Source of the DNA: Sphingomonas sp. UNC305MFCol5.2
GTDB taxonomy: Bacteria > Pseudomonadota > Alphaproteobacteria > Sphingomonadales > Sphingomonadaceae
Assembly (NCBI RefSeq): GCF_000712135.1
Contig: NZ_JOOE01000004.1
Span: 312,501-376,500 of the forward strand
Direction: 5' to 3'
DNA: 64,000 nucleotides
Shown here: positions 1,170 to 52,044 of the stretch, piece by piece
Position numbering within the stretch: the stretch's first letter is position 1
Layout: the number at the start of each line of letters is the position of its first letter
Notes under the pieces: generated by a model
Seen by the model: the letters and a program-made list of their open reading frames with translations, nothing else
Told to the model about the DNA's origin: nothing
Databases searched by the model: none
Position numbers and translations under genes: made by a program

Positions 1170-3428
1170 ATGGCTGAGGAATCGAACGTCCAGTTTTCGG
1201 AGCGCGAGGCGCTGTTGTACCACTCCGAAGGCCGGCCGGGTAAAATCGAGATCATCGCCTCGAAGCCGATGGCCACCCAGCGTGATCTGGCGCTTGCTTA
1301 TTCGCCCGGCGTCGCGGTGCCCGTCCGCGCGATCGCCGAGGATCCCTCGCTCGCCTATGACTATACCGCCAAGGGCAATCTGGTCGCGGTGATCTCCAAC
1401 GGCACGGCGATCCTCGGTCTCGGCAATCTCGGTGCGCTCGCCTCGAAGCCGGTGATGGAAGGCAAGGCGGTGCTGTTCAAGCGCTTCGCCGACGTCGATT
1501 CGATCGACCTCGAGCTCAAGACCGAAGACGTGGATCGCTTCATCGACGCGGTGGAGCTGATGGAGCCGAGCTTCGGCGGGATCAACCTGGAGGACATCAA
1601 GTCCCCCGAATGCTTCGTGATCGAGCAGACCCTGCGCGAACGCATGAACATCCCGGTCTTCCATGACGACCAGCACGGCACTGCGATCATCGCCGCGGCG
1701 GGGCTGATCAACGCGCTTCACCTGACCGGGCGCGACATCAAGACCGCGCGGGTGGTGATGCTCGGCGCCGGCGCCGCGGCGATCGCCTGTGCGGAGCTGA
1801 TCAAGGCGATGGGGCTGCCGCACGACAATCTGCTGATGCTCGACCTGACCGGAGTGATCTATCAGGGCCGGCAGGAGCATATGAACCAGTGGAAGTCGGC
1901 GCATGCCGTCGCCACGGAGAAGCGCACCCTCGCCGACGCGCTCGACGGCGCCGATGTGTTCGTGGGCCTCGCCTCGGCCAATTCGCTGTCGCCCGAATTG
2001 CTCAAGACGATGGCGCCCAATCCCATCGTCTTCGCGATGGCAAATCCCGATCCCGAGATCAGCCCGCCAGTCGCCAAGGCGGCGCGCCCCGATGCGATCA
2101 TCGCCACCGGCCGTTCGGACTATCCGAACCAGGTCAACAACGTGCTCGGCTTCCCGTTCATCTTTCGCGGTGCGCTCGACGTCCGTGCGACGACGATCAA
2201 CGACGCGATGAAGATCGCCGCGGCGCGCGCGCTCGCCGAGCTCGCCCGCCAGCAGGTGCCCGAGGAAGTCGCCGCCGCCTATGGCACGCAGCACAGCTTC
2301 GGTCCCGATTATATCATCCCGGCGCCGTTCGATCCCCGGCTGATGGAGATCGTCCCCGCGGCGGTCGCGCAGGCGGCGATGGATTCGGGGGTGGCGACCA
2401 AACCGATCGTCGACATGGCGGCCTATCGCCAGTCGCTGCGCGCCCGCCTCAATCCGACGACTTCGGTGCTCAGCCTCGCTTATGAAGGCGCGCGCGGCAA
2501 TCCGAAGCGCGTGATCTTCGCCGAGGGCGAGGAGGAAGTGGTGCTGCGCGCGGCGATCGCCTTCAAGGAAGGCGGATACGGCACACCGGTGCTGGTCGGG
2601 CGCGAATCGGTCCATGAGCGGCTGCAGAAACTCGGTGCGAATCCCGAGGATTTCGAGCTGCACAACAGCGTCAACTCGCCGCTGGTGCCGCGGATGGTCG
2701 AGTTCCTCTATAACCGGCTCCAGCGCCGCGGCTATCTGCGCCGCGACATCGAACGCATCGTCAACCGCGATCGCAACATCTTCGGCGCGCTGCTGCTCCA
2801 GCTGGGCGAGGCCGATGCGATGATCACCGGCGTTACCCGCACCTATGCCGAGACGATGCGCCAGGTGAAGCGGGTGATCGATTATGAGGAAGGCCGCACT
2901 GCCTTCGGCATCCATGTGCTGGTCGGCCAATCGCACACGGTGTTCATCGCCGACACCACGGTCAACGAGCGGCCGACCGCCGAGGAACTCGCGGCGATCG
3001 CCGAGGGCACCGCACAGGTCGCGCGGCGCATGGGCCACGAGCCGCGTGTCGCGTTCCTCAGCTATTCCAACTTCGGCAATCCCGAAGGCCGCTGGCTCGA
3101 CAATGTCCGCGGCGCGATCAAGCTGCTCGACCAGCGCTCGGTCGAATTCGAATATGAAGGCGAGATGTCGCCCGATGTCGCGCTCAACCCGCGCCAGATG
3201 GCGAAATACCCGTTCGCGCGGCTCTCAGGCCCCGCAAACGTGCTGATCATGCCTGGGCTTCAATCGGCCAACATCTCGGCCAAATTGCTCCGTGAGCTAG
3301 GCGGCGATTCGACGATCGGCCCGATGCTGATCGGCATGGAGAAGCCGGTCCAGATCGCACCGATGACCGCGACGGCAAGCGAGCTGGTGACGTTGGCGGT
3401 GCTCGCTGCGGGGGGGATCGCCCGCTGA
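1170..3428 (+). CDS. maeB: NADP-dependent malic enzyme with C-terminal phosphotransacetylase-like domain
   Basis: This enzyme decarboxylates malate to pyruvate and supplies NADPH. The 752-aa product has a malic enzyme half (about residues 1-425, with AYSPGVAVP, a [10 protein letters not shown] stretch and the Rossmann loop GAGAAAIAC) fused to a phosphotransacetylase-like half (about 430-752). That two-part architecture and length match the MaeB family; in the family the C-terminal half is usually regulatory, responding to acetyl-CoA, rather than catalytic. An upstream in-frame codon at 1098 is open, but the ATG at 1170 has the site AGGAG just before it and begins the conserved protein, so I start there. 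It ends 4 nt before a convergent reductase gene. Confidence 0.95.
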
Positions 3429-7413: not shown

Positions 7414-8697
7414 TCAGGCAGCTTGCTTGTTGAACTGGGCGGCTTCGGTGCTTTCGGCGAGTGCGGTGGTCGAGCTCTCGCCGCCGGCCACCGCCTGGGC
7501 GACCGCGTCGAAATAGCCGGTGCCGACTTCGCGCTGGTGGCGCGTCGCGGTGTAGCCGTTGGCTTCTGCGGCGAATTCGGCCTGCTGGAGCTCCGAATAG
7601 GCGGCCATGCCGCGATCCCGGTAACCGCGGGCCAGCTCGAACATGCCGTAATTGAGCTGGTGAAAGCCTGCGAGCGTGACGAACTGGAACTTGTAGCCCA
7701 TCGCGCCCAATTCGCGCTGGAAGCGGGCGATGTCGTCCTTGTCGAGATTCTTCTCCCAGTTGAAGCTCGGCGAGCAATTATAGGCCAGCATCTTGTTCGG
7801 GTGCTCGCGCCCGATCGCCTCGGCGAAGCGACGGGCGTCGTCGAGATTGGGCTTCGATGTCTCCCACCACAAAAGGTCGGCGTGGCTGGCGAAGGCGAGG
7901 CCCCGCTTGATGCAGTGATCCACGCCGGTGCCCTCCTTCAACCGGAAGAACCCTTCGGCGGTGCGCTCGCCGGTGAGGAATTCGTGGTCGCGCTCGTCGA
8001 CGTCCGACGTGATCAGCTTTGCGCTCTCGGCATCGGTACGGGCGCAGATCACCGTCGGGACCCCGCAGACGTCGGCGGCGAGGCGCGCGCTGTCCAGATT
8101 GCGGATATGTGCCTGGGTGGGGATCAGCACCTTGCCGCCGAGGTGCCCGCATTTCTTTTCCGATGCGAGCTGATCTTCATAATGCACCCCGGCGGCGCCT
8201 GCGGCGATGTACGCCTTCATGATCTCGAAGCAGTTGAGCGGGCCGCCGAAGCCGGCTTCGGCATCGGCGACGATCGGCGCGAACCAGTCGCGCGTGGCGC
8301 CGCCTTCCATGTGCTCGATCTGGTCGGCGCGCTGGAGCGTGGCGTTGATCTTCCGCGCCAGCTCGGGCCCGGCATTGGCCGGGTAGAGCGACTGATCGGG
8401 ATACATCTGGCCGGCGGTGTTGGCGTCGGCCGCGACCTGCCAGCCCGACAGATAGATCGCCTTCAATCCGGCGCGGACCATCTGCATCGCCTGGTTGCCC
8501 GAGAGGGCGCCGAGGGCGTGGATATACTCCTCCGACTTGAGCAGCTCCCACAGCTTGAGCGCGCCGCGGCGGGCGATGGTGTGCTCGACCGGCAGTGAGC
8601 CGCGCAGCCGCGCCACGTCCTCGGCCGAATACGGACGGACGATGCCGTCGAAGCGGCCATTGGGCGCGGGGACCAGATCGTCGAAGCTCGTCGGCAT
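7414..8697 (-). CDS. aceA: Isocitrate lyase
   Basis: First enzyme of the glyoxylate bypass: isocitrate to succinate and glyoxylate, needed for growth on acetate and fatty acids. The 427-aa product has the catalytic signature KKCGHLGG, with the active-site Cys, plus [20 protein letters not shown] and the ENCSPSFNW-like stretch (YNCSPSFNW). Length matches the short bacterial class. Start at 8697, preceded by AAGGAATC. Malate synthase is not in the window. It is divergent from a ScfR/RamB-type regulator, a family known to control acetate and glyoxylate genes, so regulation by that neighbour is likely. Confidence 0.97.
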
Positions 8698-47412: not shown

Positions 47413-48723
47413 TTAGCGCTTCAATATGTCGAGCGCGGCCGCGGTCATCGCTTCGGTGGCGGTGCCGATCACGGCTTCGGCCTCGGGCGCCCAGAAAGGG
47501 CTGTGGAGCGAGGGGAGCGCGTCCCTGCCGGCCTGCGCCGCATCCCACTTCGCTTTCGGAACCCCGCCGACCCAGAAGATCATGCTCTGGATCGACTTGT
47601 CGGCGAGGTAGAAGCGGCCGAAATCCTCGCCGCCCATCACTGCGGGCGTCTCGACCACGCGGTCCTTCCCGAAGCGGCCGGTCCACAGCGTCTGGAGGCG
47701 GCCGGTGAGCGGCTCGGTGTTGAAGGTGGAAGGGGTACCTTCGTTGCGGACGGTGACCACCGGCATGCGGTCCTCGGGGATGCCGGCGGCGACCGCCTCG
47801 CCCTTGGCGATGCGGGCGATGCCGTCGAGCAGTCTCTTGCGCACCTCGGGCGTGTAGCTGCGCACGGTGAGCAGCATCGTCACTTCCTTGCCGATGATGT
47901 TGTGCGTCGAGCCGCCGTGGATAGCGCCGACAGTGACGACGGCACTATCCTGCGGATCGATCTCGCGGCTGACGAGCGTCTGGAGCGTAGTGACGATACG
48001 CGCGGCGAGGACGATCGGATCGCGCGTGGTCTGGGGATAAGCGCCGTGGCCGCCGACCCCCGAAACCTTGATGTCGACCGAATCTACATTGGCGAGCGCA
48101 TAGCCCGAGCGCACGCCGATCGTGCCGGCGGGAAGCGAGGCGGCATCGTGGAAGGCGAGCGCGAATTGCGGCTTGGGGAAGCGCGTGAACAGCCCGTCCT
48201 CGAGCATCATCCGCGCGCCCATGCCGCGCTCCTCGGCGGGCTGGGCGATCATCACGAGTGTGCCCTTCCACTGCGATTTCATCGCGGCGAGATTGCGCAG
48301 CGTGCCGATCCACGAGGCCATATGGGTGTCGTGACCGCAGGCGTGCATCACGCCGGTCTCGATGCCCTCGTCATTGGTGGTGCGGACCTTCGAGGCGAAG
48401 GGGAGGCCGGTGTCCTCGGTGACGGGGAGGCCGTCCATGTCGGCGCGGATGAGGAGGATCGGGCCGGGGCCGTTCTTGAGGATCGCGACGACACCGGTGC
48501 CGCCGACCTTCTCGGTGACTTCATAGCCGGCCTTGCGCGCCTCGGCCGCGAGCTTGGCGGCGGTCTGGACCTCGTGGAGGCTGAGCTCGGGATTGGCGTG
48601 GAAATCGCGGTAGAATTCCATCAGCTGGGGAAGCGCGCGCTGGGTGGCGTCGCGGACGGGATCTGCAGCGAGGGCGGGTGTGGCGAGGGACATGGCGAGG
48701 GCTGCCGTGAGGAAGATGCGCAT
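47413..48723 (-). CDS. Exported M20-family amidohydrolase/peptidase
   Basis: A 436-aa metalloenzyme of the M20D type (hippurate hydrolase or IAA-amino acid hydrolase-like). A signal peptide (LTAALAMSLATPALA) indicates periplasmic location. Metal and catalytic residues are seen in MHACGHDTHMASW (Cys, His, Asp and His, near 125-137), in QPAEERGMGA with the paired Glu (about 163), and in HDAASLPAGTIGV and MGGEDFGRF. A dimerisation domain (GVGGHGAYPQTTRDP) sits in the middle. Likely substrates are N-acyl or N-aroyl amino acids. It stands upstream of a 79-aa gene and faces the DUF559 cassette. Confidence 0.93.
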   Translation of the reverse strand: MRIFLTAALAMSLATPALAADPVRDATQRALPQLMEFYRDFHANPELSLHEVQTAAKLAAEARKAGYEVTEKVGGTGVVAILKNGPGPILLIRADMDGLPVTEDTGLPFASKVRTTNDEGIETGVMHACGHDTHMASWIGTLRNLAAMKSQWKGTLVMIAQPAEERGMGARMMLEDGLFTRFPKPQFALAFHDAASLPAGTIGVRSGYALANVDSVDIKVSGVGGHGAYPQTTRDPIVLAARIVTTLQTLVSREIDPQDSAVVTVGAIHGGSTHNIIGKEVTMLLTVRSYTPEVRKRLLDGIARIAKGEAVAAGIPEDRMPVVTVRNEGTPSTFNTEPLTGRLQTLWTGRFGKDRVVETPAVMGGEDFGRFYLADKSIQSMIFWVGGVPKAKWDAAQAGRDALPSLHSPFWAPEAEAVIGTATEAMTAAALDILKR

Positions 48724-48786
48724 GTGGGGAGGCTAGCAGGGGCGGGGGCGTTGTCGAGGGGGTGGTATTTGCGGCAATGTTGCCTG

Positions 48787-48834
48787 CTCGCTGGACCTCG
48801 CCGCTCACCCTGGCCCCCTTTCAGGGAGAGGAGT
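48787..48834. repeat. Left copy of a repeat bracketing the DUF559 gene
   Basis: This 48-nt stretch, from CTCGCTGG to GAGGAGT, matches 49267-49318 in the same orientation with a few substitutions and a 4-nt length difference. Its palindromic core is CCCTTTCAGGGAG. It ends exactly where the DUF559 stop codon region begins. Confidence 0.75.
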
Positions 48835-49248
48835 TTAGAAGCGTGAGCGCGGCCGCCTGGCGCGCCCCTCCCTGAAAGGGAGGGGTTGGGGGTGGGTGCC
48901 GCCGAGGCACTCGGCGGCGGCTTGGAGGAGAAGTTGGGCCGCAGCGTCAGGGTCGGTCAGCACTTCGCTATTCCACAGACGCATAACCACCCAACCGCGT
49001 TCGCTGAGGAAGGTGGAGCGGCGATCATCAGCGACTTCAGTGTCGAGGTGTTGACTACCGTCGAATTCGACCGCCAGCTTTGCCTTGCGACACGCGAGGT
49101 CGATGATGAAGGGCGGTTCGATCAGTTGGCGGGTAAAGGCGGGGCGATACTGCGAGACGCGATGCCAGACTGCTCGTTCGGCCGGCGTGGGATTGTTGCG
49201 CAGCTCGCGTGCTCGAGCGGTCAAATAGGCTGGCACGCGATTTCGCAT
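48835..49248 (-). CDS. DUF559 (Vsr-like) endonuclease-domain protein
   Basis: A 137-aa protein with the DUF559 domain, a PD-(D/E)xK nuclease fold related to the very-short-patch repair endonuclease Vsr. Visible motifs are an N-terminal helix (RARELRNNPTPAERAVW), Asp 50 in FIIDLAC, and the metal-site stretch VEFDGSQH (residues 60-67). The C-terminal residues from about 118 to 128 (PQPLPFREGR) are encoded by a copy of the palindromic repeat, so the protein tail is a by-product of the repeat. The gene lies between two direct copies of that repeat, which suggests a movable cassette. No methylase or other repair gene is next to it. Confidence 0.85.
   Translation of the reverse strand: MRNRVPAYLTARARELRNNPTPAERAVWHRVSQYRPAFTRQLIEPPFIIDLACRKAKLAVEFDGSQHLDTEVADDRRSTFLSERGWVVMRLWNSEVLTDPDAAAQLLLQAAAECLGGTHPQPLPFREGRARRPRSRF
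48865..48896. repeat. Inverted internal copy of the same repeat, inside the DUF559 3' end
   Basis: CCCCTCCCTGAAAGGGAGGGG (written in part: CCCCTCCCTGAAAGGGAGGG) and the following GTTGGGGGTGGG are the reverse complement of the right-hand copy at 49283-49315 with two changes. It encodes the last residues of the DUF559 protein. Confidence 0.75.
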
Positions 49249-49266
49249 GCGGCTAGCCTAGCTCGG

Positions 49267-49318
49267 CTCGCTGGCGCTCGCCACCCACCCCCGGCCCCTC
49301 CCTTTCAGGGAGGGGAGT
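49267..49318. repeat. Right copy of the repeat bracketing the DUF559 gene
   Basis: A 52-nt copy (CTCGCTGG, CACCCACCCCCGG, CCTCCCTTTCAGGGAGGGG) just upstream of the DUF559 start and directly abutting the stop codon of the DUF4893 gene. Same orientation as the left copy, opposite to the internal one. Confidence 0.75.
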
Positions 49319-49945
49319 CTACGTCGCCGGGACCAGTTCCATCACGTCGACGATCGATTCGAAGCGTGGGCGCGGGAACACCACGCGCCAGCGTTTGGCG
49401 CCGATGCGCTCGACATAGCCGATCATGTCGCGATTGGCGTCCAGGCCGTAGCGCAAAGGTGCGGTCTCGTCGCCGAGGACAAGCGTGCCGAGGAAGATCT
49501 GGCGCGTAGGGTCGTCCGGGAAGATCAGCCCGGTGGGACGCTGCGAGCCGGTGAGCTTGTGGAGGCTGCGGACTTCGCCTTCGTCGGCGATGCGGCAATC
49601 GAAGGCGGGGTAGGTGGTGAAGTCGCGCACCGCGGTGCCCTTGGCGCCGAGCTTGAAAGTCCGGCAGCGATAGGCGCCCTGCGGGATCGCCGGATCGGGA
49701 AGCGCACGATCGGGATCGAACAGTAGGGGATCGGCGGCGATGGCCTTGGGATCGGCCTTGCGCGCGAGCGGCAGCGCTTCGTCCCACGCCTTGCGCCAGT
49801 CGCGCATGCGATCGCGATCGTCGCTGGTCGCGACGCTCTGCCAGCGCACATTGGTGGCCAGCGACGAGGATGTGGCCTCGCGATAGACGCTGCAGCCCGC
49901 AAGGCCCGGCACCAGGGCAATCGCGACGGGCAGCTTCCACTTCAT
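49319..49945 (-). CDS. Lipoprotein with DUF4893 domain
   Basis: A 208-aa lipoprotein: signal peptide VAIALVPGLAGC with the lipid-bearing Cys at 18. The mature part has the DUF4893 pattern, opening with RWQSVATSDDRDRMRDWRKAW (given in part) and including YRCRTFKLG and a second Cys in FDCRIADEG that may pair with it. The family is common in sphingomonads and of unknown function; location is probably the outer-membrane inner face. Its stop lies directly at the end of a palindromic repeat. The next gene on the strand, 3-hydroxybutyrate dehydrogenase, is 30 nt upstream, so it may be the last gene of that operon. Confidence 0.85.
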   Translation of the reverse strand: MKWKLPVAIALVPGLAGCSVYREATSSSLATNVRWQSVATSDDRDRMRDWRKAWDEALPLARKADPKAIAADPLLFDPDRALPDPAIPQGAYRCRTFKLGAKGTAVRDFTTYPAFDCRIADEGEVRSLHKLTGSQRPTGLIFPDDPTRQIFLGTLVLGDETAPLRYGLDANRDMIGYVERIGAKRWRVVFPRPRFESIVDVMELVPAT

Positions 49946-51963: not shown

Positions 51964-52044
51964 CGTCATCCCGGCGAAAGCCGGGATCTCAGGAGGCAAG
52001 CGCGAAGCCCGCGGCATGCGATCCCGGCTTTCGCCGGGATGACG
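51964..52044. repeat. Perfect 25-bp inverted repeat (REP-like)
   Basis: Arms at 51964-51988 and 52020-52044 are exact reverse complements around a 31-nt spacer; the core is CCCGGCGAAAGCCGGG. The core resembles the repeat at 7097-7174. It lies in the divergent gap between the patatin and metallopeptidase genes. Confidence 0.85.

Follow-up and report, generated by a model that had tools for sequence, protein, structure and literature searches.

A DUF559 nuclease gene between inverted palindromes in Sphingomonas, a probable unit of a palindrome and nuclease system

The locus described here raises the question of whether a small nuclease-like gene and the palindromes around it belong together and, if so, what the enzyme does to its repeats. 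It lies in a 64,000-nt stretch of DNA, referred to here as the window (contig NZ_JOOE01000004.1, positions 312,501-376,500, forward strand, assembly GCF_000712135.1), from the 4.24-Mb genome of Sphingomonas sp. UNC305MFCol5.2. We consider the locus to be probably one unit of a palindrome and DUF559 nuclease system, in which the enzyme would act on, or spread, its cognate palindromes.

Anatomy of the locus

The features of the unit and its neighbours are as follows.

47413-48723, minus strand: M20 peptidase gene, the downstream neighbour, which adjoins the DUF4893 gene in 10 relatives
48786-48837: degenerate further palindrome copy, forming a REPIN-like dimer with 48865-48901
48835-49248, minus strand: DUF559 (PF04480) nuclease-like gene, 137 aa (open reading frame, Pfam E = 1.3e-24, AlphaFold model)
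48865-48901: downstream end of the unit, inverted relative to the upstream end, with a stem-loop at 48865-48885, a TT second loop and the third strand GGGGGTGGG
48898-48918: second hairpin, GCCGCCGAGGCACTCGGCGGC, within the 3' end of the DUF559 coding sequence
49266-49318: upstream end of the unit, with a stem-loop at 49295-49315, a CC-type second loop and a mirrored G-rich third strand, followed by the subterminal GGCGAGCG..CGAGCC (minus-strand reading)
49319-49945, minus strand: gene for a DUF4893 protein, the upstream neighbour, which supplies the host context for the empty-site comparison

The original prediction described a Vsr-like DUF559 nuclease gene flanked by two direct copies of a palindrome, with a third, inverted copy encoding the C-terminus and the right copy abutting the next stop codon, and this description proved accurate. 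The direct copies agree at 79% over 34 nt (48786-48819 and 49266-49299) and, running on, at 91% over 22 nt (48816-48837 and 49300-49321). The inverted copy (48865-48901) is 92% complementary to 49279-49315 over 37 nt and supplies the last residues of the protein, and the right copy ends at 49318, directly against the stop codon of the DUF4893 gene. The proposal of a palindrome-ended cassette held in part: the association of gene and palindromes recurs in the genus, the class and beyond, but the direct repeats are rejected as element ends, as the copies that match on either side of the gene form an inverted pair and the left direct copy is degenerate. The ends of the unit are the inverted pair 48865-48901 and 49266-49318, with their third strands pointing inward. 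Two features had been overlooked, namely that the repeats occur genome-wide and that the degenerate left copy pairs with the inverted copy as a dimer.

The window protein matches PF04480 at 86.6 bits, against a gathering cut-off of 20.6, and its translation contains the predicted motif EFDGSQH. Its AlphaFold model (pLDDT 89.6) matches PDB 3hrl, an endonuclease-like protein (profile E = 2.9e-35), and 3r3p, the I-Bth0305I homing endonuclease domain (E = 4e-4 by fold and profile comparison, 4.4e-6 in a second comparison), while Vsr itself (1cw0) gave weak matches only (E = 0.09 and 0.07). Matches to cholera-toxin chains at E of about 0.9 were dismissed as chance. D50, H67, D74 and R77 are invariant in 90 sequences and E24 is conserved in at least 90%; we take E24, D50, H67 and D74 to be the conserved E, D, H and D residues of the EDxHD motif. 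The modelled protein has a Vsr/EDxHD-like nuclease fold, and cutting activity is predicted. The available passages of the literature place YcjD in the PD-(D/E)XK superfamily (PMC1189080) and name EDxHD as a homing endonuclease family (PMC6083498). Within the DUF559 family, to which YcjD and 3hrl belong together with the window protein by Pfam and profile, the published passages report no repeat partner, which sets the present gene apart. With regard to the setting typical of homing endonuclease genes (an intron, intein or disrupted target), the window gene, which resembles I-Bth0305I in fold and profile, is stand-alone, intergenic and flanked by cognate palindromes.

The repeats are a dispersed, genome-wide REP-like population and not ends private to the DUF559 gene. 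Pieces of the locus match 123 places in their own genome by BLAST. Chance as the origin of the repeats is excluded, because the palindrome core has three occurrences in the window where 0.09 would be expected, and the genome contains 72 sites with the exact stem pattern of class A, to which the window copies belong, against none for the reversed-pattern control; the pattern is palindromic, so these 72 sites are identical on both strands. Between 46000 and 54000 of the window, no known RNA family reached its gathering score.

Six of the seven other loci printed (L002-L007, with L008 the exception) contain an inverted dimer of about 120-140 bp. Such scattered class A dimers carry an end resembling 49266-49318, subterminal inverted repeat included, in common with the window unit. 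At their other end, by eye, they contain an inner hairpin comparable to that of the unit at 48898-48918. The layout of these dimers fits what gene-less derivatives of the unit would look like.

Palindromes beside DUF559 genes in other genomes

All eight DUF559 genes of this genome have a stem-loop beginning CC(C)TC nearby; L045 has it on a single side and the other seven genes on both. Across 91 loci, C/T-rich hairpins number 8.6 per kb up to 100 bp from the domain, dropping to 0-0.3 per kb at distances of 200 bp to 3 kb. The original prediction proposed scoring palindromes beside DUF559 genes against chance, and the excess it anticipated was found. Under a strict rule (perfect stem of at least 8, pyrimidine-rich 5' arm, within 200 bp), 115 of 128 stand-alone genes in the genus have at least one such hairpin (89 on both sides, 26 on one, 13 with none); among 9526 control anchors taken from the same loci, 322 have one and none has both. 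These 128 genes were drawn from 139 matches in the genus, together with four long proteins; seven fragments, weak and long-frame matches were left out. As a second control, 30 genes with a PIN domain, taken from the genus and order, were scored and none has such a hairpin, although the PIN loci are hairpin-free throughout 3.3 kb and their surroundings may be repeat-poor.

The same pattern extends beyond the genus and into other phyla. Of 35 loci elsewhere in the class, 32 have at least one hairpin (18 on both sides, 14 on one, three with none). The strand assignments behind the flank counts agree with the tables in 163 loci. Where DUF559 lies inside long open frames or multi-domain proteins (L173-L176), 0 of 4 have flanking hairpins, so the palindrome link belongs to the stand-alone gene. 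A wider scan used E. coli YcjD as query and retained the best 80 of 278 candidate stretches; by their titles, these belong to enteric bacteria, Xanthomonadaceae, Pseudomonas, Alphaproteobacteria, Gastranaerophilales, Marinimicrobia, Methylomirabilota and Taylorbacteria, with one Chryseobacterium locus that is probably contamination. With the rule relaxed to allow one mismatch and 250 bp, 76 of these 80 have at least one hairpin (36 on both sides, 33 downstream only, seven upstream only, four with none), with 31 of the 80 being Enterobacteriaceae that mostly have the same downstream arrangement and are not independent. Inspection by eye of the E. coli K-12 locus shows a triplex-type repeat some 165 bp beyond ycjD and another, degraded, at the 3' end of that gene; this ycjD repeat fails the strict perfect-stem rule.

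The systematic pairing of DUF559 genes with such palindromes is well supported, both within the genus and class and further afield. Among open-access papers we found none linking DUF559 to such repeats. Palindromes are common in this genome, which is what an accidental meeting of a small gene with common intergenic palindromes would need; the controls already refute it, with both-sided hairpins at 0 of 9526 anchors and 0 of 30 PIN genes against 89 of 128 DUF559 genes, and its probability is negligible.

Many of these hairpins share a further element. A G-rich tail is present in 237 of 393 hairpins near DUF559 genes, about 60% with the published intrastrand triplex layout, and in 207 of the 237 it fully mirrors its own stem (A or T against A), a total reached in 0 of 1000 stem shuffles; this mirror test took in 45 of the 80 wider-scan loci. 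The window copies likewise carry a third strand mirroring the purine strand of the stem. Near DUF559 genes the mirrored tail is absent from classes D, E, F and G. The tails face inward, towards the gene, in 69 of 85 upstream hairpins and 78 of 84 downstream ones, and the CC second loop is upstream in all nine loci that have one CC and one TT second loop. In the same analysis of tail direction and dN/dS, which took in 42 of the 80 wider-scan loci, dN/dS was 0.06-0.23 in 11 of the 15 listed close pairs, those for which it was computable, showing that the DUF559 protein is under purifying selection.

Stem type, protein clade and copy number

The eight DUF559 genes of this genome use eight different stem classes (A, B, D, E, F, H, I and J), with the window gene in class A. 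The classes were defined after the stems had been seen, and D2 is a loose class. The left and right palindromes belong to the same class in 85 of the 90 loci typed on both sides, against a maximum of 21 in 2000 shuffles. Placing the 12 classes on a tree of 118 proteins requires 20 changes, against at least 77 in 300 free shuffles and at least 70 in 300 shuffles within genomes; this tree was built quickly, leaves 56 of its 115 inner branches open and omits the 10 of 128 genes that have no class. Because 20 changes stand against at least 70 in the within-genome shuffles, stem type follows the protein clade and not the host genome. As a separate observation, locus L058 holds a pair of DUF559 genes (3001-3312 and 7532-7837), separated by about 4.2 kb and belonging to different clades, both labelled H.

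This match bears on two other explanations. If DUF559 were a small selfish or defence-like gene that lands preferentially in existing palindrome dimers and does not act on them, its position inside an inverted pair, as though inserted into a dimer, would be natural, but no match between stem class and protein clade would be predicted, in conflict with 20 changes against at least 70. Moreover, this genome holds 72 class A copies and nine each of B and C, yet its eight genes use eight classes. Such a passenger role is distinctly improbable. The protein could instead be a Vsr-like mismatch repair nuclease tied to cytosine methylation, beside hairpins that are ordinary terminators or mRNA ends. 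The weak fold relation to Vsr agrees with this, as does a genetic link to cytosine methylation described for the Caulobacter DUF559 protein VsrA in the available part of PMC12907096. Hairpins on both sides, many with G-rich tails inward and specific to the protein clade, and up to 10 DUF559 matches per genome make a repair role very improbable.

Copy number of four palindrome types (A, B, C and E) tracks the cognate gene, as shown in 37 genomes by tests that ignore phylogeny. Class A copies have a median of 28 in the 11 genomes with the gene and 0 in the 26 without (P = 1e-5); the corresponding medians are 19.5 in 14 genomes and 1 in 23 for class B (P = 9e-6), and 27 in 12 genomes and 0 in 25 for class C (P = 6e-4). 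Subtracting four copies per gene-bearing genome leaves P = 1.3e-4, 1.6e-4 and 0.005 for A, B and C. One genome, G016, was counted as class A by protein similarity (L072, 53% identity) although its gene lacks a strict hairpin; switching it gives P = 4.4e-5. For class E, a first test on the subclade of eight genes whose stem the pattern fits found 18-143 copies in their eight genomes against a median of 0 in the other 29 (P = 8e-6); with all 14 genomes bearing an E-labelled gene, three of which have no copies of the E pattern, P = 1.7e-4. Two of six cross-class comparisons also fell below 0.05 (A copies against the C gene, 0.024; C copies against the B gene, 0.046).

Several genomes hold palindromes without the matching gene. 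In G018, class A palindromes number 194, and the search gave no class A gene. Copies without the cognate gene are also present for class B in G020 (25), G015 (19) and G008 (14), for class C in G031 (61), G021 (37), G026 (35) and G015 (33), and for class E in G023 (10). G018 also has 21 class E palindromes and, as its only such DUF559 gene, a truncated one (L172, 1501-1683) that appears class E-like by eye.

History of the locus and comparison with known systems

Orthologous sites were compared through 30 DUF4893 loci (29 relatives), and the 13 relatives in which the M20 gene also lies in the fetched stretch form the informative set; in the nearest relative by DUF4893 (L178), M20 does not adjoin and the locus is uninformative. 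In 10 of the 13, DUF4893 and M20 are adjacent, with 9-172 bp between aligned ends and with neither DUF559 nor a strict C/T-rich hairpin between them; one of these (L181) has a CGTC-type palindrome in the gap instead. The original prediction looked for an empty site with one repeat copy, which these relatives do not bear out, and held that gene-less relatives lacking the repeat would speak against it. Absence of the repeat is what would be expected if the repeats arrive with the unit, and is not a refutation. In L180 the same gap holds a DUF559-related sequence (37% identity over 64 residues) in the opposite orientation, adjoined by palindromes whose stems are too imperfect for the strict rule. 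In L192 and L204 an unrelated gene fills the gap, reflecting either a repeated insertion site or ancestral gene order.

These comparisons fit insertion of gene and palindromes as one block, judging from empty sites of other species that are too diverged for exact junctions or target duplications. The unit has inverted ends and is present or absent at orthologous sites, both of which are features expected of a transposable element. In evolved Legionella, segments with a transposase and a DUF559 gene are described as recombination hotspots in the available part of PMC12308824, which is compatible with mobility but unspecific. In E. coli, fabI-ycjD-sapF is at least 80% covered in 3362 of 5375 genomes with a match. 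A possible empty ycjD site was rejected, as the one variant locus inspected carries an efflux operon there and represents a replacement; the available text of PMC12817139 likewise reports this replacement. By eye, the long A/T-rich inverted repeat that precedes E. coli ycjD (L136, 2762-2805) does not resemble the triplex-type repeats.

The nuclease might control the palindromes and not spread them. It would trim or resolve those that fold during replication and so limit harm, with the flanking copies as an autoregulatory sensor of its own gene, and the palindromes would spread by another route. The specific pairing, the dosage correlation and the purifying selection fit this equally well, and triplex repeats have been linked to instability in E. 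coli, according to the passages available from PMC4666352. By itself, control leaves unexplained why dimers and gene unit have common ends, and why gene and palindromes are present or absent as one block; we consider it unlikely.

The most economical reading is that the DUF559 enzyme cuts and spreads its palindromes. The target recognised by the protein would be its cognate palindrome when this forms a hairpin or triplex in single-stranded or cruciform DNA, and the protein would nick or cut there. Gene units and gene-less dimers would be copied or moved to new intergenic sites, which would parallel what RAYTs are thought to do for GTAG REPs.

This reading is best described, by analogy, as a RAYT-like partnership with an unrelated enzyme, for which cleavage and transposition are suggested. 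As in REP/RAYT systems, where RAYTs flank GTAG REPs (PMC3733652, in the passages available), short high-copy palindromes form inverted dimers and a gene is flanked by its own repeat type; here the enzyme is DUF559 and not a Y1/HUH transposase. A Y1 (HUH) transposase (PF01797) is absent from the genome itself, which led us to reject a RAYT as the enzyme for these repeats, and is present in only 4 of 61 genomes of the genus. The class A copies read have no GTAG tag at the stem foot and carry TT- or CC-type second loops and G-rich strands instead, and many DUF559-linked repeats differ further in their mirrored G-rich third strand.

Many of the DUF559-linked repeats have the layout of the intrastrand triplex motif, with stem, loop and mirrored third strand as in the published passages of PMC4666352, and may fold as triplexes. 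Those passages describe second-loop types TTA and CCG, always paired in five E. coli dimers, and the window unit pairs TT with CC. They also state that the E. coli repeats have no mobility genes nearby and that no spreading gene was found; in contrast to that description, a gene partner is proposed here. For the missing enzyme of this large repeat family, DUF559 offers a good candidate.

On a broader scale, it is about an even chance that DUF559 nucleases represent a third, phylum-spanning kind of palindromic mobile element, with inverted, often triplex-capable ends, one small EDxHD-type nuclease and REPIN-like dimers as gene-less derivatives. If so, several such systems, each with its own repeat specificity, coexist in one genome, the missing enzyme for G/C-rich intrastrand triplex repeats would be found, including that of E. 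coli (YcjD), and DNA would have a route of mobility that uses neither HUH nor DDE chemistry. The code linking nuclease clade and repeat stem gives a named candidate for the repeat enzyme that is directly testable, also in laboratory E. coli K-12. Such a code would further assign a role to a widespread domain of unknown function and offer a natural collection of nucleases covering many hairpin specificities.

The CGTC REPs of Alphaproteobacteria resemble these repeats in being palindromes of the same bacterial class and mostly dimers, and are stated to be without a dedicated transposase, in the available passages of PMC3733652. The CGTC (or TGTC/CCTC) tag and CCA tail are absent from the class A copies read. 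The window itself contains a CGTC-tagged REP dimer at 51964-52044 (CGTCATCCCGGCGAAAGCCGGGAT, with 28-nt arms that are 96% complementary), which belongs to a family distinct from the DUF559-linked one.
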